From: Chloroflexota bacterium
GTDB lineage: Bacteria > Chloroflexota > Anaerolineae > JAAEKA01
Reading direction: 5' to 3'
NCBI GenBank assembly: GCA_034717495.1
Contig: JAYELL010000001.1
Coordinates: 29,875-66,648, forward strand
DNA: 36,774 bases
Position 1 is the first letter of the stretch. Each line of letters starts with the position of its first letter. Shown here piece after piece: positions 279-17,725 of this stretch. The notes under the pieces were generated by a model. It saw only the letters and a list, made by a program, of their open reading frames with translations, did not search any database and was not told the DNA's origin. The position numbers were made by a program, and so were the translations under genes.

Positions 279-413
279 AATTCTCAATATGACGAAACAG
301 GGCGATGGAGTCGAGGCTTCAGGCGGTTCGTCAGCTGTTCTTACGCAGGACAAACGCGGCTAACCCAAAAAGGGGGCTGCGCACAGCCTCGACTCTTCTG
401 CATATTGAGAATT
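279..413. repeat. Nested inverted repeat upstream of the LacI promoter
   Basis: The outer arms are AATTCTCAATATG (279-291) and CATATTGAGAATT (401-413), a perfect 13-bp inverted repeat. Nested inside are GAGTCGAGGCT (308-318) and AGCCTCGACTC (385-395), a perfect 11-bp inverted repeat. The element spans 135 bp, has no credible gene in it, and ends 21 bp before the -35 box of the repressor promoter. It could be a small non-autonomous mobile element or a structured regulatory element. Nothing in the sequence decides between these. Confidence 0.65.
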
Positions 414-434
414 CCCCCTTTTGCAAAAAATGGC

Positions 435-463
435 TTGACAAGGATATGCAAATCTGTTATTAT
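435..463 (+). promoter_or_regulatory. Sigma-70-type promoter of the repressor/operon
   Basis: TTGACA (435-440) and TATTAT (458-463) are separated by exactly 17 bp. This is close to the sigma-70 consensus. Transcription would start near 470, inside the adjoining operator, leaving a leader of about 40 nt before the GTG start at 513. The position rules out the upstream in-frame ATG at 405 as the start of the repressor. Confidence 0.85.
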
Positions 464-465
464 GG

Positions 466-481
466 TTGGGAACGTTCCCAA
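466..481. promoter_or_regulatory. LacI-family operator, perfect 16-bp palindrome
   Basis: TTGGGAACGTTCCCAA is a perfect palindrome with the central CG typical of LacI/GalR-family operators. It starts 3 bp after the -10 box and covers the predicted transcription start, so a bound repressor would block initiation. Its position before the lacI-type gene suggests autoregulation, and regulation of the downstream cluster if it is co-transcribed. I noticed no second exact copy elsewhere in the window. Confidence 0.8.
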
Positions 482-512
482 TCTCCACGTAGCACCCTGG
501 AAAAAGCGCAAC

Positions 513-1580
513 GTGAAATCAAGACCCACCATCATCGATGTAGCTGAAAGAGCCGGCGTCTCCAAGAGCACCGTCTCGCGAGTCGTTGCGGATGATGGTC
601 AGGGGGTGAGCGACAGGGCCAGGGAGCGGGTGCAAAAAGCAATCGAAGAGCTGGGCTACGTGCCTAATGCGGTGGCCAGCAGCCTGCGCACGGCCCGCAC
701 CAACATCATCATGTTGACCATTCCAGACATCGCCAATCCCTTCTGGCCCGATCTGGCCCGTGGCGTGCAGGATGTGATGGATGAGGAGGGTTACGCGGTC
801 GTATTTGCCAACAGCGACTGGGACGGCCAACGGGAGGCCACATTCCTGCAGATGGCCGGTCGCAATCGCCTGGATGGTATTCTGATCAACCCCATTCAGG
901 TCAGCAACGAGGAACTTAAGGCGACCGGCATTCCCACGGTCGTGATCAGTTCCAGTGAACGATATCCTGACTTCGATGCCGTAGGCTCAGATAGCTTTGG
1001 CGCCGCTCAGCAGGCCCTCGCACACCTGACAGTCCTGGGGCATCGCCGCATCGGCCTGATCAGGGGGCGGCGCGTTCACCGGCTGCAGCATTCACGACTG
1101 GCCGGTTACCTGCACTATCTTCACGAGCATGGGTTGCCCATAGATGAAAACCTGATCGTCGAGGTTACTTTTGACGAGACAGGGGGCTTTCAGGCCATGG
1201 AACAGTTGCTGGCGTTACCCTGTCCACCCACAGCTGTCTTCGCCTCCAATGATCTCCTGGCCATCGGTGCCCTCCATGCAGCCCACGCAGCCGGTTTGCA
1301 GGTTCCAAGGGACCTATCCATCGTCGGTCTCGATGGTATCTTCGCTGCCTCTACCACCATCCCACCGTTGACTACCGTCGCCAAGCCCAAAGAAGTGATC
1401 GGCCGGCGAGCGGCTTGCCTGCTTCTGGAGCGAATTCGCCGCCTGGCGCCCTCGACGCCGAGGCGGGAAATCGTCGCCTGTCATCTTCAAGAGCGGGGGT
1501 CCACCGCCCTGCCAGGGGCCAGAAGATCCGATCAGGGCGGTCTGTCGTCTGTCACTCGATCGCTCAGGCAGGTAAGGTGA
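513..1580 (+). CDS. LacI-family transcriptional repressor
   Basis: A DNA-binding transcription factor of about 355 residues, the usual LacI/GalR length. The N-terminal helix-turn-helix reads TIIDVAERAGVSKSTVSRVV (residues about 6-25). It is followed by the hinge-helix region (PNAVASSLRT) and a periplasmic-binding-protein-like effector domain beginning around NIIMLTIPDIANPFW. I chose GTG at 513 because the protein then starts just before the HTH, as family members do, and because the promoter and operator lie at 435-481. An ATG at 405 in the same frame lies upstream of the promoter. The gene precedes an ARH enzyme by 33 bp and probably heads the whole catabolic cluster. The effector is presumably a small sugar or nucleoside derived from the imported substrate; that part is inference. 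Confidence 0.92.
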   Translation: MKSRPTIIDVAERAGVSKSTVSRVVADDGQGVSDRARERVQKAIEELGYVPNAVASSLRTARTNIIMLTIPDIANPFWPDLARGVQDVMDEEGYAVVFANSDWDGQREATFLQMAGRNRLDGILINPIQVSNEELKATGIPTVVISSSERYPDFDAVGSDSFGAAQQALAHLTVLGHRRIGLIRGRRVHRLQHSRLAGYLHYLHEHGLPIDENLIVEVTFDETGGFQAMEQLLALPCPPTAVFASNDLLAIGALHAAHAAGLQVPRDLSIVGLDGIFAASTTIPPLTTVAKPKEVIGRRAACLLLERIRRLAPSTPRREIVACHLQERGSTALPGARRSDQGGLSSVTRSLRQVR

Positions 1581-1613
1581 CGGAAACACTGAACTGGCGA
1601 AAGGATCCATCAG

Positions 1614-2597
1614 ATGATCGCACGTGCAACCTTGGCGCGCAACCGGAGTCTATGCGAGGACAAAGCCCTGGGCTGTATGCTGGGCCTGGCGGCTGGCGAT
1701 GCCCTGGGCGACATCGGCCGCGACGATTCCTACCGCCAGCGCTATGGCATCATCACCAACCTGTATGCCGGTGCCAAAAGCACCGACGACACCGAGTTCG
1801 CCCTGCTCACGGCCCGCACCCTCATCGACAATGACGGCAACCTGACCACCGACGCGCTGCTGCGATCCTGGCAGCGTTATATCCTGGATCAGGGTGGCGT
1901 CTACGAACGGGGTGGAAAACCGCTGTACGGCGCGGTCGAGAACCTCAAGCGGGGTATGCGGCCTCCCCTCTCCGGCATCGACAATGTGGCCAACAACGAC
2001 GACGGTGCGGCTATGCGCATCGCCCCCATCGGTATCGTGTGCGCGGGAGAACCTGAACGGGCTGCTGCCCTGGCCGAGATTGAGGCGCAAATCAGCCATC
2101 ACGCCGACGGCATTTGGGCTGCCCAGGCGGTGGCCGCCAGCGTCGCTGTTGCGATGGTCGATGGCAGCACCGATGAGATCATCGAGGCCGGTTTGAAGCA
2201 GATTCCAACGGATAGCTGGCTGGGGCGAGCCATGGGCCGCGCCATGGCCATCTGCGACCAGGAAGGCACCATCGAGGACGCCTGGGAACGCCTGCATATC
2301 GACCTGTGGACACCATCCCATTCGACCAGTGCCGAGGCGATTCCCCAGATATATGCCCTGTTTCGGCTGACCGACGGCGATTTCCGCCGCAGCATGTTCT
2401 GGGGTGGAAATTTCGGACGCGATGCCGATACCATCTGTGCAGTGCTCGGCGCAATCAACGGCGCGAAAGGAGGGTTGTCAGTCATTCCGGAGACTTGGAT
2501 AAAGAAAGTTCAACGGGCGGCGGGAGTCTGTCTTAGATTTGCTGCCCACGAGGATATCCCGACCTTGGCCAGGCAACTGGCCGCTTTCATTCGGTGA
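1614..2597 (+). CDS. ADP-ribosylglycohydrolase (ARH/DraG) family enzyme
   Basis: A single-domain ARH-fold protein (PF03747) of 327 residues. ARH enzymes hydrolyse N- or O-glycosidic bonds of ADP-ribose using a binuclear metal site. The motifs are all present: the N-terminal GCMLGLAAGDALGD (20-33), the first metal motif STDDTE (56-61), NDDGAAMRIAPIG (128-140), the ADGIWAAQAVAAS helix (164-176) and the second metal motif GRDADT (268-273). No signal peptide is visible, so it should be cytoplasmic. It starts 33 bp after the repressor and ends 62 bp before the sugar-binding protein. Family membership is clear. The substrate is not known: enzymes of this family encoded beside transporters and nucleoside hydrolases may act on small ribosides rather than on ADP-ribosylated protein. 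Confidence 0.88.
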   Translation: MIARATLARNRSLCEDKALGCMLGLAAGDALGDIGRDDSYRQRYGIITNLYAGAKSTDDTEFALLTARTLIDNDGNLTTDALLRSWQRYILDQGGVYERGGKPLYGAVENLKRGMRPPLSGIDNVANNDDGAAMRIAPIGIVCAGEPERAAALAEIEAQISHHADGIWAAQAVAASVAVAMVDGSTDEIIEAGLKQIPTDSWLGRAMGRAMAICDQEGTIEDAWERLHIDLWTPSHSTSAEAIPQIYALFRLTDGDFRRSMFWGGNFGRDADTICAVLGAINGAKGGLSVIPETWIKKVQRAAGVCLRFAAHEDIPTLARQLAAFIR

Positions 2598-2659: not shown

Positions 2660-4033
2660 ATGAAGAATTTGCACGCTTCCCGTCATTTCGCTTTCGGCCT
2701 GATGCTTCTGGCTATCGTCAGCATGGCTATGGTCGCCTGTGTTGCCCCGGCAGCACCTGCCCCCGCACCTGCAGAGAAACCTGCGGCTGCTGAACCTTCC
2801 GCAGAGGAACCCGTTACGGAAGAGGCCGTAACCATCGAGTGGTGGACCGTGTCCTCGGAGGAGTATTCCGAGGAAGCCCAACAGGGCATGATCGACCAGT
2901 TTGAGGCAGAACATCCCAACATCAAGGTCGACATGACCATTCTGCCCGACAGCGCTTTCTCCGAGAAGATGACTACCGCCCTTGGCGCCGGTGAAGGGGT
3001 GCCCGACGTGGCCTTTTTCTGGGACAACAACTGGTTCCCCGAGGCCCTGGAACTGACGCCCTTCATCGAGGCTGACCCCGACTTCAGCACCGATATCTAC
3101 TTCCCCGGCTTCTTCAAGACCCGCGCCACGTGGGGCGACAAGATCGTGGGCCTACCCCTGGGCGTTGGCGCCAACTTTGTGATGTATAACAAGGATGTTT
3201 TCGACGAGGCCGGTGTGGCCTATCCCAGCGAGGACTGGACCCCCGACGATTTCATCGAAATCGCAACCCAGTTGACCGATACCGACGTGAAACGCTGGGG
3301 TGGCGACCGGCCGCGCGGCCCCTACCGCGCCGTCTACTTCAACTACGGCGCTCGCCCTTACAGCGATGACAGCACTACCGTGGAAGGCTATCTGAACGGC
3401 CCTGAGTCGCTGGCAGCCTACACCTGGCTGTGGGATCTGATAAACAGCGGATCGACCCCCACCCCAGCCGATATCGAGGTTCTGGGCACGGAAGGCACCG
3501 GCCCGGTGGACCTTTTCCTGGCCGGGCGGCTCGCTATGGCGACCCTCAATCAGGGCCACATGCTCAATGCCGTGGAGGCTGACGCTAACTTCGGCATCGT
3601 GCCCGAACCTTTCCTGGCGGACAAGGAGAGTTACGTCCATGGCTGGGCGCTGACCTCCTCCATCTGGAAAGACACCGAACACCCAGATGAAGCGTGGCAA
3701 TTCCTCAGCTACTGGGTTGGCCCTGAGGGACAGAAATACCTGATGGAGAACGGCAACCTCTTCCCCTCAATCCCCTCCGTGCTTGAGCAGTATGAGCACG
3801 CGGACGAGGAGTACGCCCAGGCGTTCTTCAAGGTACTCGAGCAGGAGCAGGACGCCGAGTGGCTCATGGAACACCCCTGCTATCGAGGCGCGGTGCAGCG
3901 AGCAGTCGGCGACGTGTGGGACAAGATCATGTTCGGCACCATGGAACGCGACCAGATCCAGGCCGAGTTGGATGCGCTTGTGCCCGCCGCTCAGCAGGCT
4001 CTCGACGACTGTGTCCCGCGCCTGGGTGGTTGA
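2660..4033 (+). CDS. ABC transporter extracellular solute-binding lipoprotein (family 1)
   Basis: A secreted lipoprotein of 457 residues that delivers substrate to the two permeases downstream. The signal peptide ends in the lipobox MVAC with Cys27. An Ala/Pro/Glu-rich linker follows (28-53), then a family-1 sugar-binding fold starting at TIEWWTVSSEEYSEEAQQG. C-terminal segments such as WQFLSYWVGPEGQKYL fit the family. A strong ribosome site, AAGGAGGATGAAAG, precedes the ATG. Two inverted repeats lie between its stop and the next gene. Family-1 proteins usually bind oligosaccharides or glycosides, but the ligand here cannot be read from the sequence. Neighbouring ARH and nucleoside hydrolase genes suggest a ribosyl compound. 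Confidence 0.9.
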   Translation: MKNLHASRHFAFGLMLLAIVSMAMVACVAPAAPAPAPAEKPAAAEPSAEEPVTEEAVTIEWWTVSSEEYSEEAQQGMIDQFEAEHPNIKVDMTILPDSAFSEKMTTALGAGEGVPDVAFFWDNNWFPEALELTPFIEADPDFSTDIYFPGFFKTRATWGDKIVGLPLGVGANFVMYNKDVFDEAGVAYPSEDWTPDDFIEIATQLTDTDVKRWGGDRPRGPYRAVYFNYGARPYSDDSTTVEGYLNGPESLAAYTWLWDLINSGSTPTPADIEVLGTEGTGPVDLFLAGRLAMATLNQGHMLNAVEADANFGIVPEPFLADKESYVHGWALTSSIWKDTEHPDEAWQFLSYWVGPEGQKYLMENGNLFPSIPSVLEQYEHADEEYAQAFFKVLEQEQDAEWLMEHPCYRGAVQRAVGDVWDKIMFGTMERDQIQAELDALVPAAQQALDDCVPRLGG

Positions 4034-4047
4034 TTCCGACATCTGAG

Positions 4048-4117: not shown

Positions 4118-4210
4118 CGGAAATCCTAATCGAAGTGCGAAATTCCTCACCCGAAAGGGAGAGATCGACGCAATTGGTTGTTGTTCCCTGTTCCGATGGG
4201 AGATCACGGT

Positions 4211-5128
4211 ATGGCAAGTTGGCGTGAAATGTCCCCCAGAGCCAAACGCGAAGCCATCGACGGATACATCAGTATCTCGCCCTGGCTCATCGGGTTCCTG
4301 CTCTTTACTCTGGGGCCGATCCTCGCATCCGTATACTTCAGCTTCACCCAGTGGACCATCACCCGTCCGCCTGAGTGGGTGGGATTGGATAACTACGTGC
4401 GTATGTTCACCAGGGACCCTCTGTTCTGGACTGCACTCAAGGTGACGTTCACTTTCGTGATTCTGACCTTGCCGCTGCAGATTATTCTGGGCCTGGCACT
4501 TTCGCTGATGCTCAACCTCAAAGTGCGGGGCATGAATCTTTACAGAACGATCTTTTACATACCGGCCGTGATTTCGGGCGTGGCCGTATCTCTGATGTTC
4601 ATCTGGCTGCTCCAGCCCGATACGGGAGTCATCAACACCCTTCTGGAGGGCATCGGCATCCAGGGGCCCAACTGGTTTTGGGATCCCAACTGGGCACTGC
4701 CCTCGGTTGCCCTGATGAGCCTGTGGGCGGTCGGAGGCGGCGCGGTGATCTATCTGGCCGGCCTGCAGAACATCCCTCCTCACCTGTACGAGGCCGCTGA
4801 GATCGACGGCGCCAACACCTGGTACCGCTTCTGGCGCATCACGTTGCCTCTGTTGACACCAACGCTGTTCTTCCAACTCATCGTCACGATGATTGGAGCC
4901 TTCAAGGTCTTCACTGAGGCCTTCGTTATCACGAAAGGTGGTCCCCTGAAAGCCACCTACTTCTACCTCTTTTACTTTTACGAGGAAGCCTTTCAGAATT
5001 TCAACATGGGCTATGCCTCAGCGCTGGCAATATTACTGATGTTGATCATTTTGCTTGCCACTGTCCTGGTCAATTTCACCTCAAATCGCTGGGTTTATTA
5101 CGAATCAGATGGTGAGGGGGCAGCATGA
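4211..5128 (+). CDS. ABC transporter permease, CUT1 family (MalF-like)
   Basis: An inner-membrane permease of about 305 residues. It has several hydrophobic segments, beginning PWLIGFLLFTLGPILASVYF, and the cytoplasmic EAA loop YEAAEIDGANTWYRFWRITL that docks with the ATPase. I chose ATG 4211 because GGGAG lies 8 bp upstream (4198-4202). A start at 4178 would add 11 residues without a good ribosome site. It overlaps the next permease by four bases (ATGA), so the two are translationally coupled. No ATPase gene lies in the cluster, so a shared MsmK-type ATPase encoded elsewhere is likely, as in many CUT1 systems. Confidence 0.92.
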   Translation: MASWREMSPRAKREAIDGYISISPWLIGFLLFTLGPILASVYFSFTQWTITRPPEWVGLDNYVRMFTRDPLFWTALKVTFTFVILTLPLQIILGLALSLMLNLKVRGMNLYRTIFYIPAVISGVAVSLMFIWLLQPDTGVINTLLEGIGIQGPNWFWDPNWALPSVALMSLWAVGGGAVIYLAGLQNIPPHLYEAAEIDGANTWYRFWRITLPLLTPTLFFQLIVTMIGAFKVFTEAFVITKGGPLKATYFYLFYFYEEAFQNFNMGYASALAILLMLIILLATVLVNFTSNRWVYYESDGEGAA

Positions 5129-6027
5129 CACAGTCTACCGTGGCCGACACATCCCAGGCCCAGACACCATCCAACATCAAACAACCGTTGCTCTCGCGCC
5201 GGGCACGTCACTGGTTGGGGCATGGCGCGGCCTACATCTTCATGACCGCCCTGGCGCTGGTCTTCATGATTCCCATTCTCTGGATGCTTTCCACCTCCCT
5301 GAAAGCACGTTGGGAGGTCTTCGCCTGGCCGCCCCAGTGGATTCCGGAAACTATCCACTGGGAAAACTACGTCGAGGCCTTCACTCGTTATCCCATGGGC
5401 CGTTTCATGCTCAACTCCACCATCCTGGTCGCAGCCACCATTGTGGGCGAGTTATTTGCCGTGCCCCTGGTCGCTTACGGGTTTGCTCGCCTGCGTTTTC
5501 CAGGAAAAAATGTGCTCTTCCTGATCATGCTGGGCACCATGATGATTCCGGGACACATCAAACTGATTCCCCTTTTCACCATCTACCACCGCCTGGGCTG
5601 GATCGACACCTACCTGCCCCTGATCGTTCCCGCCTTTTTTGGCAGTCCCTTCTTCATCTTCTTGATGGTTCAATACATGAAAACCATCCCACGTGATCTG
5701 GATGATGCAGCCCGCATCGACGGCGCAGGCACCTGGGGCATACTCTACCGCGTGTTATTGCCATTATGTGTACCGCCCCTGACCATCGTCGTCGTTTTCA
5801 CCTTTTTGTGGACCTGGAATGAGTTCCTGCATCCCCTCATCTTCCTCAACAGTTTTGAGCTTTTTCCTGTCCAGGTCGGCCTGGCCCTGTTCAAGGGGCG
5901 TTACAGCGTGGAATGGAATCTGTTCATGGCCGCCACGCTAATCTCAATCATCCCGATTCTGATCCTCTATTTCTTCAGCCAGAAACAACTGATCGGTGGC
6001 ATTGCCTCGGTGGGACTGAAAGGATAG
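5125..6027 (+). CDS. ABC transporter permease, CUT1 family (MalG-like)
   Basis: The second inner-membrane permease, 300 residues. The first transmembrane segment follows an N-terminal tail (GAAYIFMTALALVFMIPILW). A MalG-type sequence WMLSTSLKARWEVFAWPPQW follows. The EAA loop is LDDAARIDGAGTWGILYRVL. The C-terminus KQLIGGIASVGLKG is typical of MalG-type permeases. The start overlaps the preceding stop (ATGA). With the binding protein at 2660 and the permease at 4211 it forms the importer. The nucleoside hydrolase gene starts 5 bp after its stop, linking transport directly to an intracellular hydrolase. Confidence 0.93.
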   Translation: MTQSTVADTSQAQTPSNIKQPLLSRRARHWLGHGAAYIFMTALALVFMIPILWMLSTSLKARWEVFAWPPQWIPETIHWENYVEAFTRYPMGRFMLNSTILVAATIVGELFAVPLVAYGFARLRFPGKNVLFLIMLGTMMIPGHIKLIPLFTIYHRLGWIDTYLPLIVPAFFGSPFFIFLMVQYMKTIPRDLDDAARIDGAGTWGILYRVLLPLCVPPLTIVVVFTFLWTWNEFLHPLIFLNSFELFPVQVGLALFKGRYSVEWNLFMAATLISIIPILILYFFSQKQLIGGIASVGLKG

Positions 6028-6032
6028 GTACT

Positions 6033-6929
6033 ATGGCCGCACGGCCGATCATTCTGGACACGGACGTCGGCACCGATGTAGACGACGCCTTCGCTATTGC
6101 CCTGGCCGCCCGGTCACCCGAGCTCAAGCTGGAAGCCGTGACGACGGTCTTTGGCCATGTAACACGGCGCGCTCGCATGGCCCGCAAGCTGCTCGATCTG
6201 TTGGACCAGTCTGCTGTTCCGGTGGCAAGGGGCATGGAGAGCCCGATCACGCCCGGTAAGGAGGTCTATTGGGGTGGTTGGGAAGGGGAGGGTTTTCTTT
6301 CCACGGGGGACGAGTCCCTGCCTCTCGATCCCCGCAACGGTGTAGATCTCATTTGCGACTTGCTCGAAACAGCGGCCGAACCTATCACGCTGGTTGCCAT
6401 TGGTCCTCTCACCAACATTGCCACCGTGATCCTTCTCAGGCCAGATCTGCTGCCTGCTATTGACGAGATCATCTGTATGGCAGGCACCATCGTGCCCGGG
6501 CAAGAGGAGTGGAACGTCCAGTGCGATCCGGAGGCGGCTCGGATCGTATTCCAGTCGGGACTGCCGATTACGCTGGGTACCCGATTCATTGTCAACCAGC
6601 CCCGGCTGACTCAGCTTCACCGCCAGCGACTGGCCGCCCGCTGCGATGACCCGGCAGTACACGCGCTTGTGGCCATGCTGGACGTGTTCCTGGACAGGAA
6701 GCAGCGCGACTCCACACCCATGTACGATCCTGTAACGTTGAGTATGGCGTTTACCGAAAAGTTTGTTCAGACTCAAGCCATGGCCGTTGCCGTTCAACTC
6801 GAGGACGGCGTACTGCACCTGACACCGCAGCCATCTGGCGAGCCGAACATGCACATCTCGGTCGGCGTGCAACCGGAACTGTTCGTCGACGCCTTGGTTG
6901 ATCGCCTCCTTGGCCAACATGAACAGTGA
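6033..6929 (+). CDS. Nucleoside hydrolase (inosine/uridine-preferring family)
   Basis: A cytoplasmic N-ribohydrolase-type enzyme of about 298 residues (PF01156), the usual family size. The calcium-binding N-terminal motif DTDVGTDVDD occupies residues 9-18. ITLVAIGPLTNIATVI and the conserved EWNVQCDPEAA segment follow, and MYDPVTL supplies the late conserved Asp. Family members cleave the N-glycosidic bond of nucleosides to ribose and base. I chose ATG 6033 because AAAGGA lies just upstream and the motif starts nine residues in. A longer frame from 5913 would run back through the permease gene. Its position between the importer and three ARH-type enzymes suggests the imported compound is a nucleoside or related riboside. 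Exact specificity cannot be predicted. Confidence 0.9.
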   Translation: MAARPIILDTDVGTDVDDAFAIALAARSPELKLEAVTTVFGHVTRRARMARKLLDLLDQSAVPVARGMESPITPGKEVYWGGWEGEGFLSTGDESLPLDPRNGVDLICDLLETAAEPITLVAIGPLTNIATVILLRPDLLPAIDEIICMAGTIVPGQEEWNVQCDPEAARIVFQSGLPITLGTRFIVNQPRLTQLHRQRLAARCDDPAVHALVAMLDVFLDRKQRDSTPMYDPVTLSMAFTEKFVQTQAMAVAVQLEDGVLHLTPQPSGEPNMHISVGVQPELFVDALVDRLLGQHEQ

Positions 6930-8001
6930 CCCTTTCTTTCTGGCACAGGACATATTTCCCGGCCTGTCTACTCATCCCTCGTGCCACGCCCCAACCATTA
7001 TCGCTCTGCCTGACGACAGTTTGCTGGTAGCGTTTTATGCCGGCAGTCTGGAGAAGGCGTACGACGTCGCTATCTTGACCTCTCGATATCACCCGGCATC
7101 TCGGACCTGGTCATTGCCCCGGGTGGTCGTGGATCTGCCATGCAGGTCATTGGGCAATCCTGTGCTTTTCCTGAACCCGGCGGGCGTTCTGCATCTCTTC
7201 TATCTCGTTATGCAGGGAGACAGATGGTTCCAGTGCTCTATCCACCAGGTTACCTCGACCGATTTCGGGACCGCCTGGCGTTCAGACACCATGTTCCGCG
7301 AGGAAACAGGCTGGACAACGCGCAACAATCTGCTCCTGCTATCGAACGGCAGCATACTCTTTCCGCTCAGCGACAACGTACGGGGTGGGGCGATCTGTTT
7401 GTTGTCCGGCGACGGCGGACATAACTGGCAGGAGGGGGAGATGATCGCCTCCTCCCCCAAGAATGAGCAGCCGGCCGTCGTGCAACTCTCCGACAATAGT
7501 CTCTTGGCCTACATGCGCACGGGCGGAAAGGGAGGCCTCTGCTGGCAATCCCGCTCTTTTGACCTGGGACAATCGTGGGCGCCGGCCGAGCCAGGACCAT
7601 TCAAGAATCCAAACTCGGCTATGGCCATGATCCGGCTCACCGGCGGCAGCCTGGTTGCAGTTTACAACGACTCGGACGATCACCGCTTTCGCACGCCACT
7701 CAATGTGGCCCTGTCGGTCGATGAAGGGCGCACCTGGCCCTGCGTCCGGTCGCTGGAAACTGGCAATGGCCGATTCAACTATCTGGGGATATCGGTCGAT
7801 GGACAGGAGAGCGTCGAGTTCTCTTATCCGGCGATCACGCAGAACAGCGAGGGCCTGATCCATATCGTCTACACCAACTGCCGCAGGAACATCAGGCATG
7901 TGATGTGCAACGAGGCCTGGCTGCAGGATAGCTATCTGTCCAGGCGCATGGAGGGGCCGCGTGCCCCGGCGCCTGGCGAGCGTGGAGGTCAGGGAGACTG
8001 A
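6919..8001 (+). CDS. Intracellular BNR/Asp-box (sialidase-like) propeller protein
   Basis: A protein of about 360 residues related to the BNR_2 sialidase-like family. Four Asp boxes with the S-x-D-x-G-x-x-W pattern are visible: STDFGTAW (113-120), SGDGGHNW (163-170), SFDLGQSW (213-220) and SVDEGRTW (266-273). This indicates a six-bladed beta-propeller. The late segment VEFSYPAITQNSEGLIHIVY resembles the sialidase-family active-site region. There is no signal peptide, which is unusual for a sialidase and suggests a cytoplasmic role on an imported glycoside. The preferred ATG at 6919 overlaps the nucleoside hydrolase stop; an ATG at 6898 is also possible. The stop lies one base before the next ATG. 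The true substrate is unknown, and sialic acid specificity is not implied. Confidence 0.82.
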   Translation: MNSDPFFLAQDIFPGLSTHPSCHAPTIIALPDDSLLVAFYAGSLEKAYDVAILTSRYHPASRTWSLPRVVVDLPCRSLGNPVLFLNPAGVLHLFYLVMQGDRWFQCSIHQVTSTDFGTAWRSDTMFREETGWTTRNNLLLLSNGSILFPLSDNVRGGAICLLSGDGGHNWQEGEMIASSPKNEQPAVVQLSDNSLLAYMRTGGKGGLCWQSRSFDLGQSWAPAEPGPFKNPNSAMAMIRLTGGSLVAVYNDSDDHRFRTPLNVALSVDEGRTWPCVRSLETGNGRFNYLGISVDGQESVEFSYPAITQNSEGLIHIVYTNCRRNIRHVMCNEAWLQDSYLSRRMEGPRAPAPGERGGQGD

Positions 8002-8002
8002 T

Positions 8003-10210
8003 ATGACGACTATCCGGGAAACGAACGTTTCGTCCGAAACTTTGCGAAGCCGTGCCCGGGGCTGCCTGTTGGGCGCAGCCATCGGTGATACCATGGGCGC
8101 GCCCTGTGAGGGGCTCAGCGCCGAGGAGATCAGCGCCCGCTACGGCGTGTTGACCGGCTTCGTCAGCGACCGGGCATCAGGCACCGACGACACCGACTTT
8201 ACCCTCTTCAACGCTCACATCCTGCTGACCTACGGCGTCGACGTTAGCCTGGCCCAGGTGGAGGCCGAGTGGCGGGATAAGTTGCTGGCGCCCGGCAGGG
8301 CCTACCGGCCCGGTGGCTTTAGCGATGTTATCTCCACCCGTAACCTGGCTGCCGGCCTGCACGCGCCCCAGTCTGGCCAGTTCGGGCACCAGATGTGGAG
8401 CGACGGCGTGGCCATGGCCATCGGCGCTGCCGGAATCATTAGCCCCGGCAAACCCCACCAGGCCGCTCATCTGGCCCGCGTGCTGGGCAGCATCTCCAAC
8501 GCGCGAGACGGCATCTACACTGCCCAGGCCGTGGCCGCGGCCATCAGCGTGGCCATGATAGGCGCATCGCCTGCGGAGATGATGGCCACGGCCATCCAGC
8601 ACGTGCCCGTCGACTCGTGGATTTTTCGAACCCTGCAAGAGGCTCGGGAGATCGGCTCCAGATGCGATGACCTGGAGCAGGCCTTGCCCGCCATCGCTGA
8701 TGCCTTGATCGTTCCCTGGTGGACCTGGGCCGACCTGGCGACGGAAGCCGTACCGCTGGCCTTCGCCGTTTTTCTGGCCACCGATGGTATCTATCAACGC
8801 GCTGTTCCGGCCGGAATTCGCCTCGGTCGCGACGCCGATACCATCGGCGCCATCGTGGGCAGCCTGGCTGGTGCTTATGGTGGCATCGATGCCATTCCAG
8901 CCCCCTGGCAGGCCCGGGTGCAGGAGTCCACCGGCTACTGCATCGGCTACGTCGCCGGGCGCGATATCGGCGATATCGCTGACGAGTTGGCGCAGGCCGC
9001 CGGGCGTTTGTCTTCCGACGAAGAGCCGGTACCAGGCAGGGACTCCCCGATCGAAAAAAACAGGGTTGAGTTGCCCGATTCCGGATTGCCTCCATCCCAA
9101 TTTCCTTCTGTCAGCGAGTCGCCTTCTTCTCACGTTACTTCGCTGAAAACTGCCACGTCAAGCCGGCGGATCAGCCAGGATCGTGTGGCCGGCGCGTTGC
9201 TGGGCCTGGCCTACGGCGACGCCATCGGCTTCCCGGCCATGTTTCATCGCTTCCAGGACCAACGCATGCCGCGCAAGCGCCACAACTTTCTGTGGCGCAC
9301 CAACCAGGAACTCGATGAAAGGCGAATTCTGCGCTTGATGCTGCCTTTTACCCACCGCGTCGAGCCGCAGACCCTGGAGCCCTGCCCCACTGACGACACC
9401 GAGTTCGCCTTGCTGACTCTGGAGGCCCTGCTGGCAGCCGGGTCAGAGCCAAACCAGGATTCCTTCGTCGCGGCCTGGACCGGCAGAGTTTTGCCCGTGG
9501 CGGACCAGGTCATCAGCGGTTTTTCAGAGCGTTCAGCTATTGAGAATTTCCAGAGCGGTTTGCTGCCACCGGCCACGGGCAATGACAATCCACTGCACTA
9601 TGCCGATGCCGCTGTACCCCGGGCCGTTCCCATCGGACTGTTCTGCGCGGGCGATCCCGGCCGGGCTGCAGCCCTGGCCAGGCTGGATGCACAGATCACA
9701 AACGCCGAAGACGGCATCTACGCGGCCCAGGCTATGGCGAGTGCAATCGCGCTTCTGTCAGCCGGTGAATCGCTCACCCTGGCGCTGATCCAGGCTCGGG
9801 CTCAATTGCCGGCCGGCTCCTGGATCGCCCGCGGCGATGCGATCGCTCGCAACTGTCTGGCCGAGAGCACGACACCCGAAGACCTGGCCCTATTGCTGAG
9901 CCGGCGCCTGATCAACACAGTCTACTCCTATGGCAACGCGGCACCGGAGACCTTTCCCGCCGCCCTGGCCATCGTGGAAGCCTGCCAGGGCGACCTGCGG
10001 CTGGGCTGCCTGGTGGCAAACAGTATTCCCAAGGCTGCCGATTCCTTACCCGCTATGGTCGGCGCTCTGTGCGGTGCGCATCAAGGCAGCAGCGTCATCA
10101 GCCCGCACTGGCAGGCTGCCCTGGTCGAGTGCCGGGGTATCTGTTTGCCCTTCCTCCGGGGTGTGCGCCTGGATGAGCATGCCGCCGCCCTGTTTGAACG
10201 AATCGCATAG
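8003..10210 (+). CDS. Tandem ADP-ribosylglycohydrolase fusion (two ARH domains)
   Basis: A 735-residue protein with two complete ARH-fold domains joined by a Ser/Pro-rich linker (about 335-388). Domain 1 (about 14-332) has GCLLGAAIGDTMGAP, TDDTD (61-65) and GRDADT (275-280). Domain 2 (about 389-735) has GALLGLAYGDAIGFPA and PTDDTE (462-467). Where GRDADT should be, it reads PKAADS (676-681), so the first Asp is Ala and the Thr is Ser. Domain 2 may therefore bind only one metal or be regulatory. I chose ATG 8003 because GGGAG lies just upstream, and the start sits one base after the previous stop. No signal peptide is present. Fusion of two ARH domains suggests coordinated hydrolysis or an internal pseudoenzyme. 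Substrate unknown. Confidence 0.87.
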   Translation: MTTIRETNVSSETLRSRARGCLLGAAIGDTMGAPCEGLSAEEISARYGVLTGFVSDRASGTDDTDFTLFNAHILLTYGVDVSLAQVEAEWRDKLLAPGRAYRPGGFSDVISTRNLAAGLHAPQSGQFGHQMWSDGVAMAIGAAGIISPGKPHQAAHLARVLGSISNARDGIYTAQAVAAAISVAMIGASPAEMMATAIQHVPVDSWIFRTLQEAREIGSRCDDLEQALPAIADALIVPWWTWADLATEAVPLAFAVFLATDGIYQRAVPAGIRLGRDADTIGAIVGSLAGAYGGIDAIPAPWQARVQESTGYCIGYVAGRDIGDIADELAQAAGRLSSDEEPVPGRDSPIEKNRVELPDSGLPPSQFPSVSESPSSHVTSLKTATSSRRISQDRVAGALLGLAYGDAIGFPAMFHRFQDQRMPRKRHNFLWRTNQELDERRILRLMLPFTHRVEPQTLEPCPTDDTEFALLTLEALLAAGSEPNQDSFVAAWTGRVLPVADQVISGFSERSAIENFQSGLLPPATGNDNPLHYADAAVPRAVPIGLFCAGDPGRAAALARLDAQITNAEDGIYAAQAMASAIALLSAGESLTLALIQARAQLPAGSWIARGDAIARNCLAESTTPEDLALLLSRRLINTVYSYGNAAPETFPAALAIVEACQGDLRLGCLVANSIPKAADSLPAMVGALCGAHQGSSVISPHWQAALVECRGICLPFLRGVRLDEHAAALFERIA

Positions 10211-10225
10211 CAACCGCTATTTTCG

Positions 10226-10269
10226 GGCCGGTCTTTGCGAAGCACCCCAGAGCGCCAGCGGAGTGGGCC
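10226..10269 (+). repeat. 44-bp dispersed repeat, copy 1
   Basis: The 44 bp beginning GGCCGGTCTTTGCGAAGCAC recur with only a few differences at 27141-27184. This copy sits in the 95-bp gap between two ARH genes, inside an otherwise tightly packed operon. It has no reading-frame role. A good ribosome site (AGGAGAAGGAAA) follows before the ATG at 10306. Confidence 0.75.
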
Positions 10270-10305
10270 TGACCGCTCTCGCATCGCTCGTTCAGGAGAA
10301 GGAAA

Positions 10306-12435
10306 ATGATAACAATTTCCCAACGCCCACTGCCCATCGACTATGAAGAACGCGTCTATGCCGGCTGGCTGGGCAAGTGCATCGGCGTTCGTTTCGGCGC
10401 GCCCCTCGAAGGCTGGACCTACCAGGAGATTCGCGATAATCTCGGTGAACTGGACGATTATCTGCCATTGCCACCGGGCAAGGTCTTCAAACCTGATGAT
10501 GACACAGCGTTTCCCATGATTCTCGTGCGGGCATTGCAGGACTACGGGCCAGCGGTCAGTGCCGAACAGCTTGGCGAGACGATGCTGAACTATCTTGGTG
10601 ACCAACGAGGAACACTGTGGTGGGGTGGCTACGGTGTCTCTACGGAACATACGGCCTACCTGAACCTGGCCGCAGATATCCCGGCCCCTCTTTCCGGTTC
10701 GATCGCCCTCAATGGCGCCGCGCTGGCCGAACAGATCGGTGGCCAGATATTCAGCGACATCTGGGGCCTGGTGGTGCCCGATAATCCAGAACTCGCGGCC
10801 GGGTATGCTGCCCGCGCTGCCAGCATCAGCCACGATGGCAACGCCGTCTACGGTGGCAGGTTCATCGCTGGCCTGGTGAGCGCAGCTTTCAGCCAGGTTG
10901 ATCCGCAGCATTTGATCGAGATCGGCCTTGGCCTGATCCCCGCTGACAGCGAATATTCCCGCGTTGTACGGGCCGTCCTTGATTTCCATGCCGGACAGCC
11001 CGACGACTGGCACGCGGCCTATCGTTTCATCAACGACAACTTCGGTTATGACCGTTACCCTGGCGTTGTGCATATCATCCCAAACACCGGCGTTGTCATC
11101 ATGGCTCTGCTATATGGCCAGGGCGATTTCTCTCGCACGATTCAGATCGCCAACATGGGGGGGTGGGACACCGACTGCAACGTTGGAAACGTGGGCGCCA
11201 TCACCGGTGTGGCTGTAGGATTGCAGGGAATTTCTCCCAAATGGCGCGAGCCGATGAACGACGAACTGGTAACGGCCAGCCTGATCGGGACCCGTAACCT
11301 GCTGGACATCCCGGCTTGTGCCGATCTTTTCTGCGCGCTGGGCCGCCAGATCGCCGGCGAATCTGCTCGGCCTGGCCGGCCACGCTATCACTTCAGCTAT
11401 CCTGGCTCGACACAGGGATTTCACCAGTGCAGCGGCAGTCGGGGAAAGATCATCTCGCTGCGCCAGATTGGGACTCGCGAATCGAATCCCAGGGCACGGA
11501 CCGCGGACGGCCCATTTGACCAACCAGAGGGTGCCCTGCAGTTGACCGTGCGTAAGCTCAACAAGAAGAGCGAGGTGCGCTTTTTCGTCAAAACCTCCCT
11601 TCGTCCCGACGAGCTGAGCGCCAACTATTACGGGGCGAGCTTCTCGCCCAAGATCTATCCTGGACAGCAACTGCGGGCCCGGCTATTCCTGCCACCCGAT
11701 GCCCCCGAACAGCTTCAGGCCAGTCTGTTCGCCTGGGATGACAACCACAGCGAGACCCATCAGAGCAAGGGACACCCCTTGCAACCTGGCCGTTGGCACG
11801 ACCTGCGCTTTCAGATTCCAGCCCTGCACAACGCCTGTCTTTCCGAGGTGGGAGTCCTGCTGCGCAACCTGGGCCAGCCCTGGAGCGGCTCGCTCAGCCT
11901 GGGTAGCCTGGATTGGGATGGCTCCCCTTCTTTCAGCAATGACTTTGGCCTGGAGCGCCCTGAATATGATGCCATCAGCCAGTGGACCTTCCTGCGGGGC
12001 TTCTGGCGGCTGGACGAAGGTGGTTATCATGGCAGCGGTGTTGGCGTGAACGAAACCTACACCGGCGATATCCAATGGCAGGACTATTCGCTGTCCGTGC
12101 GGCTGACCCCGCTGAAAGGCGATCATCACAACATCAACGTGCGTGTGTCGGGTGCGCTGCGATCCTATGCTGCCGGCCTGGCGCCCGATGGCAAAGTGGT
12201 ACTTTACAGGAACGACAGGGGATACCGGCAGGTGTCTGGCGCCGCTTTTCCCTGGCAACATGGATGCAGCACTCTTCTGACACTGGCAGCGAGGGACAAT
12301 GGCTTGATCGTCAGCGTCGATGGCCAGGAAAAGATATTCTGGACTGATGATGACCAACCCTATCGTTGTGGCCAGATCGGCCTTTCCAATTTTGCTGGCT
12401 GTCGAACCTGTTATGAATTCGTCGAAATCAGTTAA
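10306..12435 (+). CDS. ADP-ribosylglycohydrolase-family protein with C-terminal beta-sandwich extension
   Basis: A 709-residue protein. The N-terminal ARH domain (about 10-350) starts YEERVYAGWLGKCIGVRFGAP. Its metal motifs are PDDDTAF (63-69) and GGWDTDCNVGNVGAITG (285-301). This WDTDC form marks a different ARH clade from the GRDADT enzymes upstream. After about residue 355 comes a beta-rich region of roughly 350 residues. Its last part (about 555-709), ending IFWTDDDQPYRCGQIGLSNF, resembles LamG or 3-keto-disaccharide-hydrolase-like jelly rolls, suggesting glycan or glycoside binding. The preceding part (about 400-550) may be a second beta-sandwich. No signal peptide is visible. The start has the strong ribosome site AGGAGAAGGAAA. 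The gene overlaps the next by 23 bp. The domain assignment beyond ARH is tentative. Confidence 0.85.
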   Translation: MITISQRPLPIDYEERVYAGWLGKCIGVRFGAPLEGWTYQEIRDNLGELDDYLPLPPGKVFKPDDDTAFPMILVRALQDYGPAVSAEQLGETMLNYLGDQRGTLWWGGYGVSTEHTAYLNLAADIPAPLSGSIALNGAALAEQIGGQIFSDIWGLVVPDNPELAAGYAARAASISHDGNAVYGGRFIAGLVSAAFSQVDPQHLIEIGLGLIPADSEYSRVVRAVLDFHAGQPDDWHAAYRFINDNFGYDRYPGVVHIIPNTGVVIMALLYGQGDFSRTIQIANMGGWDTDCNVGNVGAITGVAVGLQGISPKWREPMNDELVTASLIGTRNLLDIPACADLFCALGRQIAGESARPGRPRYHFSYPGSTQGFHQCSGSRGKIISLRQIGTRESNPRARTADGPFDQPEGALQLTVRKLNKKSEVRFFVKTSLRPDELSANYYGASFSPKIYPGQQLRARLFLPPDAPEQLQASLFAWDDNHSETHQSKGHPLQPGRWHDLRFQIPALHNACLSEVGVLLRNLGQPWSGSLSLGSLDWDGSPSFSNDFGLERPEYDAISQWTFLRGFWRLDEGGYHGSGVGVNETYTGDIQWQDYSLSVRLTPLKGDHHNINVRVSGALRSYAAGLAPDGKVVLYRNDRGYRQVSGAAFPWQHGCSTLLTLAARDNGLIVSVDGQEKIFWTDDDQPYRCGQIGLSNFAGCRTCYEFVEIS

Positions 12436-13879
12436 CACAAAACGCCTCGATCCCTTTTTCAACCCACGTCGAATCGCGATCGTCGGCGCGTCTGAACGGG
12501 GAATGTACCCGGCCGGGGTGTTGCGCAACCTGTTGGACGGTGGCTACGGAGGCGACATCTACCCTGTTAATCCCGGGCGGGAAACTGTGTTTGGCATTCC
12601 ATGCTATTCCGACCTCAGCCAAACGCCCGAGCCCGCCGAACTGGCGATTCTGGTTGTCCCGCGATATGCCGTGTTGCCTACCCTGCGCCAGTGCCTTGTC
12701 GTCGGCGTGCCGGCGGCCTTGATCATCAGTGCTGGATTCGCCGAAGCGGACGAAGAGGGTCGCCGGTTGCAGGCTGAGATGGCCCGCCTTCTCAAAGCTT
12801 CGGACAACGCCCTTGCCGTCATTGGTCCCAACTGTGCCGGTTTGGCCAACATCCCCGGCCGGGTCATTGCCACCCGTTTGCCTGCCCCGCCAAAGCCAGG
12901 ACCCATCTCTTTCATCTCCCAGAGCGGCGCACTGATGATGGCACTCTACGGCCTCTTTGCCGACCGCCACCTTGGCCTAAGTTATCTGTTGTCGCTGGGC
13001 AATCAGGTAGATGTTTCCCTGTCCGATAGCCTGGCCTACGTTTCGGGCGATCGGGAAACCACAGCCATTGGCGCATTTATCGAAGGGGTGCGCGACGGTC
13101 GTGCCTTTGTCGACAGTGCTCGACAGGCTTTGCTGGCAGGCAAGCCGCTGGTTGTGGTCAAGGTTGGCCGCACAGAGATCGGCCAACAAGCGGCGCTGAC
13201 TCACACTGCCGCGCTTACCGGTTCGGATCGGGTCTTCGACGCCTTGGGCCATCAGTTTGGCATTGTGCGCGTGGATGACGTTGGTGAGTTGGTAGATACG
13301 TTGCAGATCATGGCCGCCGTCGGGTCGAAGCTGTCTGGTCGTGGTCACGTCGCCCTGGTCACGCAGTCAGGCGGCCTGGGTTCGCTAACAGCTGACCTGT
13401 GCCAGCTGGCAGGGTTGAAGCTACCGCCGTTGAGCGATCATCTGGAGAGACAATTGCGTTGTCTCCCGCATATCCTTGACTTCGGCGCGCTGGGCAACCC
13501 CGCGGATGTGCGAGGCGCAGCCGTGATTGGCCCTGCTACCGGCCAGACCCTGGCGCCCTTCCTGGCTGACCCCGACACTGACGTCGTCTTGCTGCTTTTG
13601 GCAAAATCAGCGGTACGCGAGCAAGATGCCGCCACGGCAAGCGCGATTATCGCTGCTGCCCGCCAGAGCGAAAAGCCGCTGATTGTTGTCTGGGTGGGAC
13701 AGCGACGGTCATCCGGGGCAATGGATTGGCCCGAGGGCCACCGCTTGCTGGTAGAGGCAGGTATTTCGCTTTTCGAACAGCCAGGCAACGCGGTCCGGGC
13801 ATTGGCCCGTACGATGGCATATTGGCGTTTCCGAAGCCGTTGGCTGGCTGATCCCGAGGTGCCCGATGTCTACCGCTGA
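12413..13879 (+). CDS. NDP-forming acyl-CoA synthetase, alpha subunit (CoA-binding and ligase domains)
   Basis: An acetate-CoA-ligase (ADP-forming)-type alpha subunit of about 488 residues. Residues about 11-140 form the CoA-binding Rossmann domain (FNPRRIAIVGASERGMYPAG, then IGPNCAG). The ligase domain follows, with FISQSG (167-172) and ALTHTAALTGSD (261-272). His264 corresponds by position to the phosphorylated His of the family. The ATG at 12413 starts just before the usual N-terminus and overlaps the ARH gene by 23 bp. No strong ribosome site is seen, so translational coupling is likely. The partner ATP-grasp subunit overlaps by 14 bp downstream. Together they would convert a carboxylate, CoA and ATP to acyl-CoA, ADP and phosphate. 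The acid is unknown, and the adjoining citryl-CoA lyase suggests a citrate-like one. Confidence 0.88.
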   Translation: MNSSKSVNTKRLDPFFNPRRIAIVGASERGMYPAGVLRNLLDGGYGGDIYPVNPGRETVFGIPCYSDLSQTPEPAELAILVVPRYAVLPTLRQCLVVGVPAALIISAGFAEADEEGRRLQAEMARLLKASDNALAVIGPNCAGLANIPGRVIATRLPAPPKPGPISFISQSGALMMALYGLFADRHLGLSYLLSLGNQVDVSLSDSLAYVSGDRETTAIGAFIEGVRDGRAFVDSARQALLAGKPLVVVKVGRTEIGQQAALTHTAALTGSDRVFDALGHQFGIVRVDDVGELVDTLQIMAAVGSKLSGRGHVALVTQSGGLGSLTADLCQLAGLKLPPLSDHLERQLRCLPHILDFGALGNPADVRGAAVIGPATGQTLAPFLADPDTDVVLLLLAKSAVREQDAATASAIIAAARQSEKPLIVVWVGQRRSSGAMDWPEGHRLLVEAGISLFEQPGNAVRALARTMAYWRFRSRWLADPEVPDVYR

Positions 13880-14528
13880 TCGACTATTGTCATATCAGGC
13901 GACCGCAGCGATCCTGGATGCCCACCAGATTCCGCTGGCACCGGCTCGGGTGGTGTCAACACCATCCGAGGCCGCGGATGCGGCGATCGATCTGGGCCTC
14001 CCGGTCGCACTCAAAGCGCTTTCGTCGGATCTAACCCACAAGTCGGATGCCGGTCTGGTTTATCTTGATCTACAAACGCCCGGGGCAGTGGAGTCCGCCG
14101 GGCGTACGCTGGCAGACAAGACGAGTGGGGTTCAGTTGGAGGGATTGTTGGTGCAGACGATGGTTGCCGGAGGGGTCGAGGTGATCGCTGGCCTCAGCCG
14201 GGATCCCCAGTTCAGTCTGGTCATCATGTTGGGTGCAGGCGGTGTGCTGGTGGAACTACTGGATGACATTGTCCTGCGCCTGCCGCCGCTGACGTCACAA
14301 CAGGCCGGGCAAATGATCCGGGAGATCCGAGTGTGGCACTTGCTGTCGGGATATCGGGGTCAGCCCGCTGCCGATATACCCGCCCTGGCGCAATTGATCG
14401 TAAACCTCTCCGACATGGCTATTCGGCAGGCCGACCGGCTTGTCAGTCTCGACCTGAACCCCGTGATCGTTCTGCCCCAGGGTGGTGGGGTGCAGGTGGT
14501 TGATGCGCGAATGCTTGTACGGGAATGA
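13866..14528 (+). CDS. NDP-forming acyl-CoA synthetase, beta subunit (ATP-grasp)
   Basis: An ATP-grasp_5-type beta subunit of 220 residues, the usual size for the separate subunit. It has GLPVALKALSSDLTHKSDAG (about 44-63), with His58 matching the beta-subunit relay His. It also has the glycine-rich LGAGGVLVELLDD and the late LDLNPVIV. It takes the phosphoryl group from ATP and passes it to the alpha subunit. The gene overlaps the alpha subunit by 14 bp and is followed at once by the citryl-CoA lyase. The three form one translationally coupled block. Confidence 0.88.
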   Translation: MSTADRLLSYQATAAILDAHQIPLAPARVVSTPSEAADAAIDLGLPVALKALSSDLTHKSDAGLVYLDLQTPGAVESAGRTLADKTSGVQLEGLLVQTMVAGGVEVIAGLSRDPQFSLVIMLGAGGVLVELLDDIVLRLPPLTSQQAGQMIREIRVWHLLSGYRGQPAADIPALAQLIVNLSDMAIRQADRLVSLDLNPVIVLPQGGGVQVVDARMLVRE

Positions 14529-14554
14529 TGCATGGCATGGAAGGAAGGCAGGCA

Positions 14555-15337
14555 ATGGCTCCAGTTCAAACGTCGATCTCCCAGGTGTTTCCCGATCGCA
14601 TTCTGATACGCGGCTATAGTCTGGCCGATCTGATTGGGGTCTATGGATTTGGCGACGTGGTCTATCTACTCCTTGTTGGCGAACTGCCGACGGGCCATGA
14701 AGGAGGATTGATTGATGCCATTTTGGTGGCCTGTGTTGAACATAATATCAACGCGCCGTCCACCCATACGGCTCGTGTTGTCGCCAATACAGGGACATCC
14801 CTGCAGTCGGCTGTTGCGGCGGGCATCAGCGCCATTGGCGAGCATCATGGCGGTGCCGGGGAGGCCTGTGCACGTATCCTGCAGGAAGCTCTCCTGACCG
14901 ATCCGACCGCGGAGCTTGATGTGTTGGCAGGGCGAATCGTGGCGGACGCGCGACACGATGGTCGCCGTTTGCCCGGCTTCGGGCATCGATTCCACGATCC
15001 CGATCCGCGAGCCGAGAGGTTGTTGGGGCTGGCCGATCAGTGGTCACTTAGCGGCCGCCATGTCAGCCTGGCTCGGGCCATCGAAGGCGCGCTGCGCAGC
15101 GCCACCGGTCGTTCGTTGCCCATCAATGTGGATGGCGCGCTGGCCGCGCTGATCTCGGATCTCGGTATCGACTGGCGCCATGGCAAGTCGCTATTCCTTA
15201 TCGGGCGCAGCGCCGGTTTGGTCGCTCATGCCTACGAGGAGACAGGTACTGGAAAGCCATTTCAGTTTGCGGAGAGGGTTGATGTGTCGTATATTGGTCC
15301 TGGCGAAAGATCGGTGCCAGCACATCCCGGGGATTAG
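14555..15337 (+). CDS. Citryl-CoA lyase (small citrate-synthase-fold protein)
   Basis: A citrate-synthase-superfamily protein of about 260 residues. This matches free-standing citryl-CoA lyases and is far shorter than a full citrate synthase. The three catalytic elements are visible: EHHGGAGEA (96-104) for the first His, LPGFGHRFHDPDPRAERL (139-156) for the second His and the Arg, and PINVDGALAAL (189-199) for the Asp. It would cleave citryl-CoA, or a related 3-hydroxy-3-carboxyacyl-CoA, to acetyl-CoA and an oxo acid. I prefer ATG 14555 because AAGGAAGG lies just upstream. An ATG at 14525 overlapping the preceding stop is possible. With the two upstream subunits it would make an ATP-citrate-lyase-like activity from three genes. 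This is the last gene of the cluster. Confidence 0.85.
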   Translation: MAPVQTSISQVFPDRILIRGYSLADLIGVYGFGDVVYLLLVGELPTGHEGGLIDAILVACVEHNINAPSTHTARVVANTGTSLQSAVAAGISAIGEHHGGAGEACARILQEALLTDPTAELDVLAGRIVADARHDGRRLPGFGHRFHDPDPRAERLLGLADQWSLSGRHVSLARAIEGALRSATGRSLPINVDGALAALISDLGIDWRHGKSLFLIGRSAGLVAHAYEETGTGKPFQFAERVDVSYIGPGERSVPAHPGD

Positions 15338-17211: not shown

Positions 17212-17281
17212 TCGCTCCTTGCCGATTTCTGTGACCCTGGTTGAGGAATTGCCTTTCATATTAGGAAGGAGGAATCGACCC

Positions 17282-17713
17282 ATGCCTACCCGACGACCAA
17301 TGGATCATATTGGGAAGAATAAATTCAAAATCGAGATTAACGGTGTAACCGTCGCGGCCTTTACCGCCGTCGAGGGAATCGAAGCGCGTACCGCAGTGAT
17401 TACCTATGTGGACGGCAACGACATGATTGTGCGAAAACGTCCTGGCCGAACGACCTATTCCAACATCATCTTCAAGCGGGGCTACGTCAACACCGATGAA
17501 TTGTGGCAGTGGTACAAGGCAGTGATGGATGGGCAGGCCGAAAGAAGATCTGGTTCGATCATCGTATTGGATGAGGCTGGTGACGAGATCTTCCGGTACA
17601 ACTTCTTTGAGGCCTGGCCTTGCCGCTGGAAGAGCCTGGAGCTCGATGCTGCGGCGCCCGGTGCCCTGATAGAGGAACTCGAGGTCGTGGTTGAGAAGAT
17701 CGAGCGCGGCTAG
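17282..17713 (+). CDS. Phage-type tail tube protein (gp19/contractile-injection family)
   Basis: A protein of about 143 residues resembling the T4 gp19-like tail-tube family (PF06841), also found as the inner tube of extracellular contractile injection systems. Family-like features are the FKIEINGVTVAAFTAVEGIE opening (about 15-34), the strand KRPGRTTYSNIIFKRGYV, the WQWYKAVMDG helix and the closing RWKSLELDAA region with an EELEVVVEKIE C-terminus. I chose ATG 17282 because AGGAAGGAGG lies about 9 bp upstream. No sheath, baseplate, spike or AAA+ gene is present in the window, so it is an orphan copy. The gene after it may be a partner. It could be a remnant of a larger cluster or a repurposed tube protein. 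Confidence 0.75.
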   Translation: MPTRRPMDHIGKNKFKIEINGVTVAAFTAVEGIEARTAVITYVDGNDMIVRKRPGRTTYSNIIFKRGYVNTDELWQWYKAVMDGQAERRSGSIIVLDEAGDEIFRYNFFEAWPCRWKSLELDAAAPGALIEELEVVVEKIERG

Positions 17714-17725
17714 GATTGAATTGGC

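Follow-up and report, generated by a model that had tools for sequence, protein, structure and literature searches.

Gene organization of the locus

The window, a stretch of 36,774 nucleotides, originated from an uncultured Chloroflexota bacterium belonging to the class Anaerolineae. From position 405 to 15337, every gene was encoded on the + strand, in the order of LacI-family regulator, ADP-ribosylglycohydrolase-family protein 1 (ADPRH1), solute-binding protein, two permeases, nucleoside-hydrolase-family protein, BNR-repeat protein, ADPRH2, ADPRH3, synthetase alpha subunit (alpha), synthetase beta subunit (beta), and lyase:

405..1580, +, LacI-family regulator, start codon uncertain (Pfam LacI and Peripla_BP_3); opens the conserved cluster in relatives
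1614..2597, +, ADPRH1 (Pfam ADP_ribosyl_GH, 8.6e-47); conserved gene no. 2 of the cluster
2660..4033, +, extracellular solute-binding protein of a sugar-type ABC transporter (Pfam SBP_bac_1, 4.7e-29); solved relatives mostly sugar-binding
4178..5128, +, ABC transporter permease 1 (Pfam BPD_transp_1)
5125..6027, +, ABC transporter permease 2 (Pfam BPD_transp_1)
5913..6929, +, nucleoside-hydrolase-family protein, true start probably at about 6033 (Pfam IU_nuc_hydro, 6.7e-53); solved relatives are ribonucleoside hydrolases
6898..8001, +, BNR-repeat, sialidase-like protein (Pfam BNR_2, 1.3e-56)
7961..10210, +, ADPRH2, double ADP-ribosylglycohydrolase-family protein (Pfam ADP_ribosyl_GH, 2.8e-83, two stretches)
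10306..12435, +, ADPRH3, ADP-ribosylglycohydrolase-family protein with a long C-terminal part (Pfam ADP_ribosyl_GH, 3e-53); marker for cluster tracing
12413..13879, +, NDP-forming acyl-CoA synthetase alpha (Pfam; solved relatives 2csu, 4xyl, and 8wzu); candidate phospho-His264 at 13202-13204
13866..14528, +, ATP-grasp beta subunit of the synthetase (Pfam; 4xyl chain B, 2.1e-40); His58 at 14037-14039
14525..15337, +, citryl-CoA-lyase-family protein of citrate-synthase fold (Pfam, NCBIfam, 6hxp, model); H108/H154/D203 and Gln247-Phe248

The initial annotation had placed a three-gene module of overlapping or directly adjoining genes at 12413-15337. All three genes were found there on the + strand, with overlaps of 14 nt between alpha and beta and 4 nt (ATGA) between beta and lyase; ADPRH3 and alpha overlapped by 23 nt. 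This set of alpha, beta, and lyase genes is far beyond chance. A scan for promoter and terminator consensus sequences gave matches no more numerous than in shuffled sequences. For ADPRH3, no solved relative was detected at an E-value of 0.01, and its AlphaFold model, built from a four-row alignment, had a pLDDT of 42.9, too poor to describe the fold of the C-terminal part.

Genes from 15877 onward were unrelated to the operon. The region 15877-18268 encoded a TolB-like protein and a tail-tube protein of the T4 gp19 type (contractile-injection-system-like families) as well as an unassigned 180-aa protein, and is possibly the edge of another locus. In addition, a 121-aa frame at 18978-19340 matched only the last part (profile positions 124-231) of the aminoglycoside 3-N-acetyltransferase family and looks like a gene remnant.

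Synthetase subunits

The alpha subunit, read from the ATG at 12413, contained Succ_CoA_lig (Pfam, 1.8e-51) and CoA_binding_2 domains, and the beta subunit contained an ATP-grasp_5 domain (3.6e-62). The solved relatives of the two subunits were NDP-forming acetyl-, 3-hydroxypropionyl-, and 4-hydroxybutyryl-CoA synthetases. The best NCBIfam match of alpha was AcCoA-syn-alpha (3.8e-107), yet below the cut-off of that model, and alpha scored 358.7 bits against the equivalog for acetate--CoA ligase (ADP-forming), TIGR02717, whose cut-off is 567.15. Both subunits scored below the cut-offs of every characterised acyl-CoA ligase family in NCBIfam. A second acyl-CoA synthetase, encoded elsewhere in the same genome, was only 38% identical to alpha.

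Two histidines had been singled out in the initial annotation: His264 as the likely catalytic residue of alpha, and His58 in beta, described there as a separate ATP-grasp subunit. Both were present, within the motifs THTAALTG and THKSD, respectively, and were invariant in all nine sequences compared. With these two conserved histidines, the CoA-binding and Succ_CoA_lig domains in alpha, and ATP-grasp_5 in beta, the pair belongs to the NDP-forming acyl-CoA synthetase (ACD) superfamily. The acetate-CoA-ligase arrangement ascribed to the synthetase was likewise borne out by Pfam, NCBIfam, and the solved relatives.

Lyase family, fold, and active site

The lyase was 270 aa long from the first ATG and 260 aa from the ATG at 14555, and contained a C-terminal citrate synthase domain (Pfam Citrate_synt, 1.7e-41). 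It scored 251.6 bits against the NCBIfam citryl-CoA lyase family PRK06224 (PRK06224.1-3; NF004866), above the cut-off of 245, and its nearest solved relative was the citryl-CoA lyase of Hydrogenobacter (6hxp, 9.6e-55). A structural model (pLDDT 86.2), built from an alignment of the window protein and its relatives, matched 6hxp best (Z 26.4, 228 residues, 42% identity), and the ATP-citrate lyase modules trailed with Z of about 22. The three catalytic elements expected of a citrate-synthase-fold protein were recognised as an H108/H154/D203 triad, alongside H73, R162, and R228 as substrate residues. The possibility that the lyase is a non-catalytic paralogue was rejected, as the triad was intact in each clade member covering it (L059 ends before the Asp).

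In the citrate synthase of Metallosphaera, Arg351 of the other subunit forms a salt bridge with the distal carboxylate of citrate (PMC6386500). When the sequence alignment from the search of solved relatives was continued without gaps, Gln247 of the window lyase fell opposite this Arg351. In the structural alignment of the lyase model, Phe248 was opposite residue 1085 of human ATP-citrate lyase (ACLY), which we take to be the equivalent distal-carboxylate Arg. By sequence and model alignment, Gln247/Phe248 stand where the distal-carboxylate Arg is expected in a Hydrogenobacter-type lyase. Within the clade of the window lyase, the position aligned with Arg351 held Q six times, K twice, and G and R once each, and was followed by Phe in every member. 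The lyases linked to CcsB and those of AclB type had Arg or Lys-Arg at this place. Because Gln/Phe replace the Arg, a citrate analogue such as citramalate is a possible substrate; it is also possible that citrate is held differently or that the other citryl-CoA isomer is used.

Phylogeny and distribution of the lyase

In a tree of 61 rows, the window lyase was placed within a Chloroflexota clade of 11 rows (support 98/98), whereas another clade (99/94) held 6hxp together with the lyases linked to CcsA/CcsB in the same class; the proteobacterial lyases linked to CoA-transferases were also apart from the window clade. In the comparison with characterised citryl-CoA lyases called for in the initial annotation, the nearest solved relative was the Hydrogenobacter enzyme, but the window lyase stood in a clade of its own, whose activating enzymes are of other kinds.

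In a class-wide search, full-length members of the window clade scored at least 374 bits and nothing else exceeded 293, with a truncated member (L009/L059) at 273.5 bits. Across 400 genomes of the phylum, no clade lyase was found besides that of the window, the sole other match being a class member that scored more weakly and was of the other type. Hydrogenobacter-type sets of CcsA, CcsB, and lyase were present in the same class (L063, L080, and L084). The citryl-CoA-lyase family was also widespread on plasmids (173 records; e.g., L050-L055, Proteobacteria and Rhodococcus), often adjoining CaiB-type CoA-transferases and TTT, TRAP, or other transporters.

Exchange of the module in the conserved gene cluster

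The cluster core (LacI, ADPRH1, ABC transporter, and ADPRH3) was traced through relatives with ADPRH3 as the marker. About 23 Anaerolineae genomes or loci carried this LacI/ADPRH/ABC/ADPRH cluster with a module in the slot occupied by the three genes in the window, and the content of the slot varied. A split synthetase with the lyase was found in the window, L057, and L038; L128 and L137 had the split genes with a contig edge right after beta, and L058 was a fragment. A fused alpha-beta protein accompanied the lyase in L059, L098, L099, and L100. In L035 and L097, the lyase was paired with a CaiB-type (class III) CoA-transferase, confirmed as such by family search. An AclA/AclB-like ATP-citrate-lyase pair, whose AclB-like member is a CoA-ligase/lyase fusion, filled the slot in L116, L117, L118, and L120 with L121, and CitD-CitE plus CitF did so in seven related genomes (L119, L122, L126, L131, L150, L151, and L152). 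Family searches of these slot genes identified CitF (438 bits), CitE and CitD domains, and AclB with a Citrate_synt domain, and AclA of L116 had a Citrate_bind domain scoring 29.2 against the Pfam cut-off of 26.8. In the cluster most like that of the window, a sulfatase-family gene lay between ADPRH3 and the fused synthetase (L099:7720-9276).

On the ADPRH3 tree, the slot type had changed at least six times. Of the 396 class genomes, 9 of the 27 with a close ADPRH3 carried the clade lyase, as did 1 of the 369 without (p 7e-11); for CitF, the counts were 8 of the 27 and 8 of the 369 (p 1e-6), in tests that ignore relatedness. These genomes held 15 full CitF genes, seven of them inside the cluster. 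No such module was carried by any of the 12 distant-ADPRH3 loci examined. L127 was a complete cluster without such a module, and in G243 the synthetase and lyase were on different contigs.

Since different citrate-splitting systems share one slot, the best explanation is that citrate or a close analogue is what the pathway produces. Cleavage of such a compound is the common denominator of the slot types and makes citrate or a close analogue the best-supported substrate from comparative genomics; this argument is independent of any single annotation. The earlier suggestion, that citrate or a citrate-like acid is activated and then cleaved by the module, is likewise supported by the Acl-like or CitD-CitE/CitF genes in the same slot.

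Proposed function

We consider it likely that the three genes constitute an ATP-citrate-lyase-like module of new composition, acting on an acid freed from an imported sugar-like compound. Most likely, the module couples CoA to citrate, or to an acid much like it, and splits the product; it would probably work like ATP-citrate lyase while standing outside that family and outside the Hydrogenobacter-type lyase clade. What can be read from the sequences themselves is the identity of the genes, their intact catalytic residues and overlaps, the conservation of the cluster, and the interchange of four kinds of citrate-splitting system in the slot.

The substrate, direction, chemistry, and source of the acid we infer as follows. 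The acid would be set free in the cell from the imported sugar-like compound by the upstream ADP-ribosylglycohydrolase- and nucleoside-hydrolase-family enzymes. ATP would phosphorylate the alpha/beta synthetase at His58 in beta and His264 in alpha, and the synthetase would form the acyl phosphate of citrate, or of a closely similar hydroxy-tricarboxylic acid, and pass the acyl group to CoA, giving a citryl-CoA-type thioester. The lyase would then cleave this thioester by retro-Claisen chemistry, yielding acetyl-CoA together with oxaloacetate or the corresponding 2-oxo acid.

A rather unlikely alternative is that the module acts on a citrate analogue without the distal carboxylate, such as citramalate, which would be split to acetyl-CoA and pyruvate. 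Gln247/Phe248 in place of the distal-carboxylate Arg of citrate synthase and ACLY, together with the retained central-carboxylate residues R162 and R228, would suit such a substrate, and the CitD-CitE/CitF homologues, which include citramalate lyase, could also use it. However, K or R occurs at position 247 in L072, L099, and L100 of the same clade, the Arg is retained in clusters with the ATP-citrate-lyase-like pair, and AclA of L116 has a citrate-binding domain above the Pfam cut-off. The synthetase might instead be an ordinary ADP-forming acetyl/acyl-CoA synthetase producing ATP from acyl-CoA, with the lyase acting on a different compound as a mere neighbour. The best named family of alpha is indeed the acetate--CoA ligase alpha subunit, and the solved relatives carry the names of acetyl-, 3-hydroxypropionate, and 4-hydroxybutyrate CoA ligases; yet all scores are under the cut-offs of those families, the genes overlap, relatives fill the slot with other citrate-splitting systems, and the genome has a separate, distant paralogue, which makes such a coincidence very improbable.

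A role in central metabolism, in which the module would replace ATP-citrate lyase in the reductive TCA (rTCA) cycle or supply acetyl-CoA from the cell's own citrate, also had to be weighed, as the nearest solved lyase is that of Hydrogenobacter and Hydrogenobacter-type sets exist in the same class. Nevertheless, the lyases of those sets fall in a clade that excludes the window lyase, the module closes an operon that has a LacI regulator and a transporter of sugar type, and the search of the own genome for another citrate synthase recovered one, in tandem form. As an ordinary citrate synthase is encoded in the genome, the module is not expected to be a central-carbon replacement, and the rTCA role, extremely unlikely in our view, was rejected on clade, operon context, and this citrate synthase. 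The only CcsA-like match in the genome was 36% identical and is probably a succinyl-CoA synthetase. The tandem citrate synthase gene (L103:3609-6248, contig 18) was an 880-aa frame fusing two complete citrate synthase domains, the second with Asn in place of the catalytic Asp of the first (NVNFYTG versus NVDFYSG).

With cleavage of citrate or a close analogue as the preferred reading, the cluster points to an undescribed route for the breakdown of something containing citrate. Ribokinase (352 bits against a cut-off of 300) was encoded directly 3' of the lyase in L038, L035, and L095 and was also found in L122, L126, and L136, and esterases were found in L059, L118, L119, L121, L124, L125, and L150. 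Because a LacI regulator, a sugar-type ABC transporter, and ribosyl-hydrolase families occur together with ribokinase or esterases in sister clusters, a reasonable guess, offered as a hint, is that the imported compound might be a pentose-citrate conjugate (glycoside or ester). Tentatively, the operon may represent a catabolic route, so far undescribed, by which Anaerolineae use a conjugate that links citrate (or a close analogue) to a pentose, for example ribose. The ADPRH and nucleoside-hydrolase families, with esterases in some relatives, would free the acid and the sugar, ribokinase would take the sugar, and a citrate-cleaving system recruited by each lineage would split the acid, the window version being a new ATP-citrate lyase of the NDP-forming acetyl-CoA-synthetase type. 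In genome G236, genes for MmgE/PrpD and PrpF, which typically go with tricarboxylic acid chemistry, were convergent to ADPRH3 (L125:1898-3220 and 8104-9441). Literature searches returned no fitting compound or paper for an ADPRH/nucleoside-hydrolase/ribokinase cluster, and nothing relevant on catabolic pairs of citryl-CoA-lyase-family proteins and CoA-transferases, including the function or substrate of the proteobacterial and plasmid pairs.

A citrate-splitting enzyme with a ligase of the ADP-forming acetyl-CoA-synthetase type would be a further architecture for this reaction, which is central both to lipid synthesis and to the reductive TCA cycle. That unrelated citrate-splitting systems have been swapped repeatedly within one conserved operon also offers a rare, testable clue to what the mostly uncharacterised ADP-ribosylglycohydrolase-family proteins of environmental bacteria do, and likewise to a substrate of uncultured Chloroflexota.

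Comparison with the closest known systems

As in the CcsA/CcsB and citryl-CoA lyase system of Hydrogenobacter thermophilus, synthetase and lyase were separate in the window, and the lyases shared 42% identity over the 228 aligned residues, the fold, and the triad. In contrast, the window synthetase was of the NDP-forming acetyl-CoA synthetase type (Succ_CoA_lig/CoA_binding_2 in alpha and ATP-grasp_5 in beta), not of the succinyl-CoA-synthetase type, the lyase belonged to another clade with the distal-carboxylate Arg replaced, and the genes were in a catabolic-looking operon rather than among rTCA genes. ATP-citrate lyase (ACLY; AclA/AclB) likewise combines an acyl-CoA synthetase with a lyase of citrate-synthase fold, and Acl-like pairs held the same operon slot in L116-L118 and L120/L121, but the window genes were unfused and their synthetase was from another family. 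In a Pfam search, the ACLY-type citrate-binding domain (PF16114) was absent from alpha and beta.

The proteins of classical citrate lyase, CitD-CitE/CitF, occupied the same slot in the seven related genomes, although they are unrelated enzymes (acyl carrier protein, TIM-barrel lyase, and CoA-transferase alpha). Archaeal ADP-forming acetyl-CoA synthetase (ACD; e.g., PDB 4xyl) shared the alpha/beta architecture and both phospho-transfer histidines with the window synthetase, whereas ACD has no lyase partner and the window subunits were below all cut-offs of characterised families. Known substrates of ACD are simple or hydroxy monocarboxylic acids. Further, the proteobacterial pairs of CaiB-type CoA-transferase and citryl-CoA-lyase-family protein resembled the window module in acid activation, in the lyase family, and in their catabolic-looking clusters. 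Their activator, however, is a CoA-transferase, and their lyases were in other clades, with Lys (KGPMPP) at the distal site, or Arg in L050, where the window lyase has Gln.
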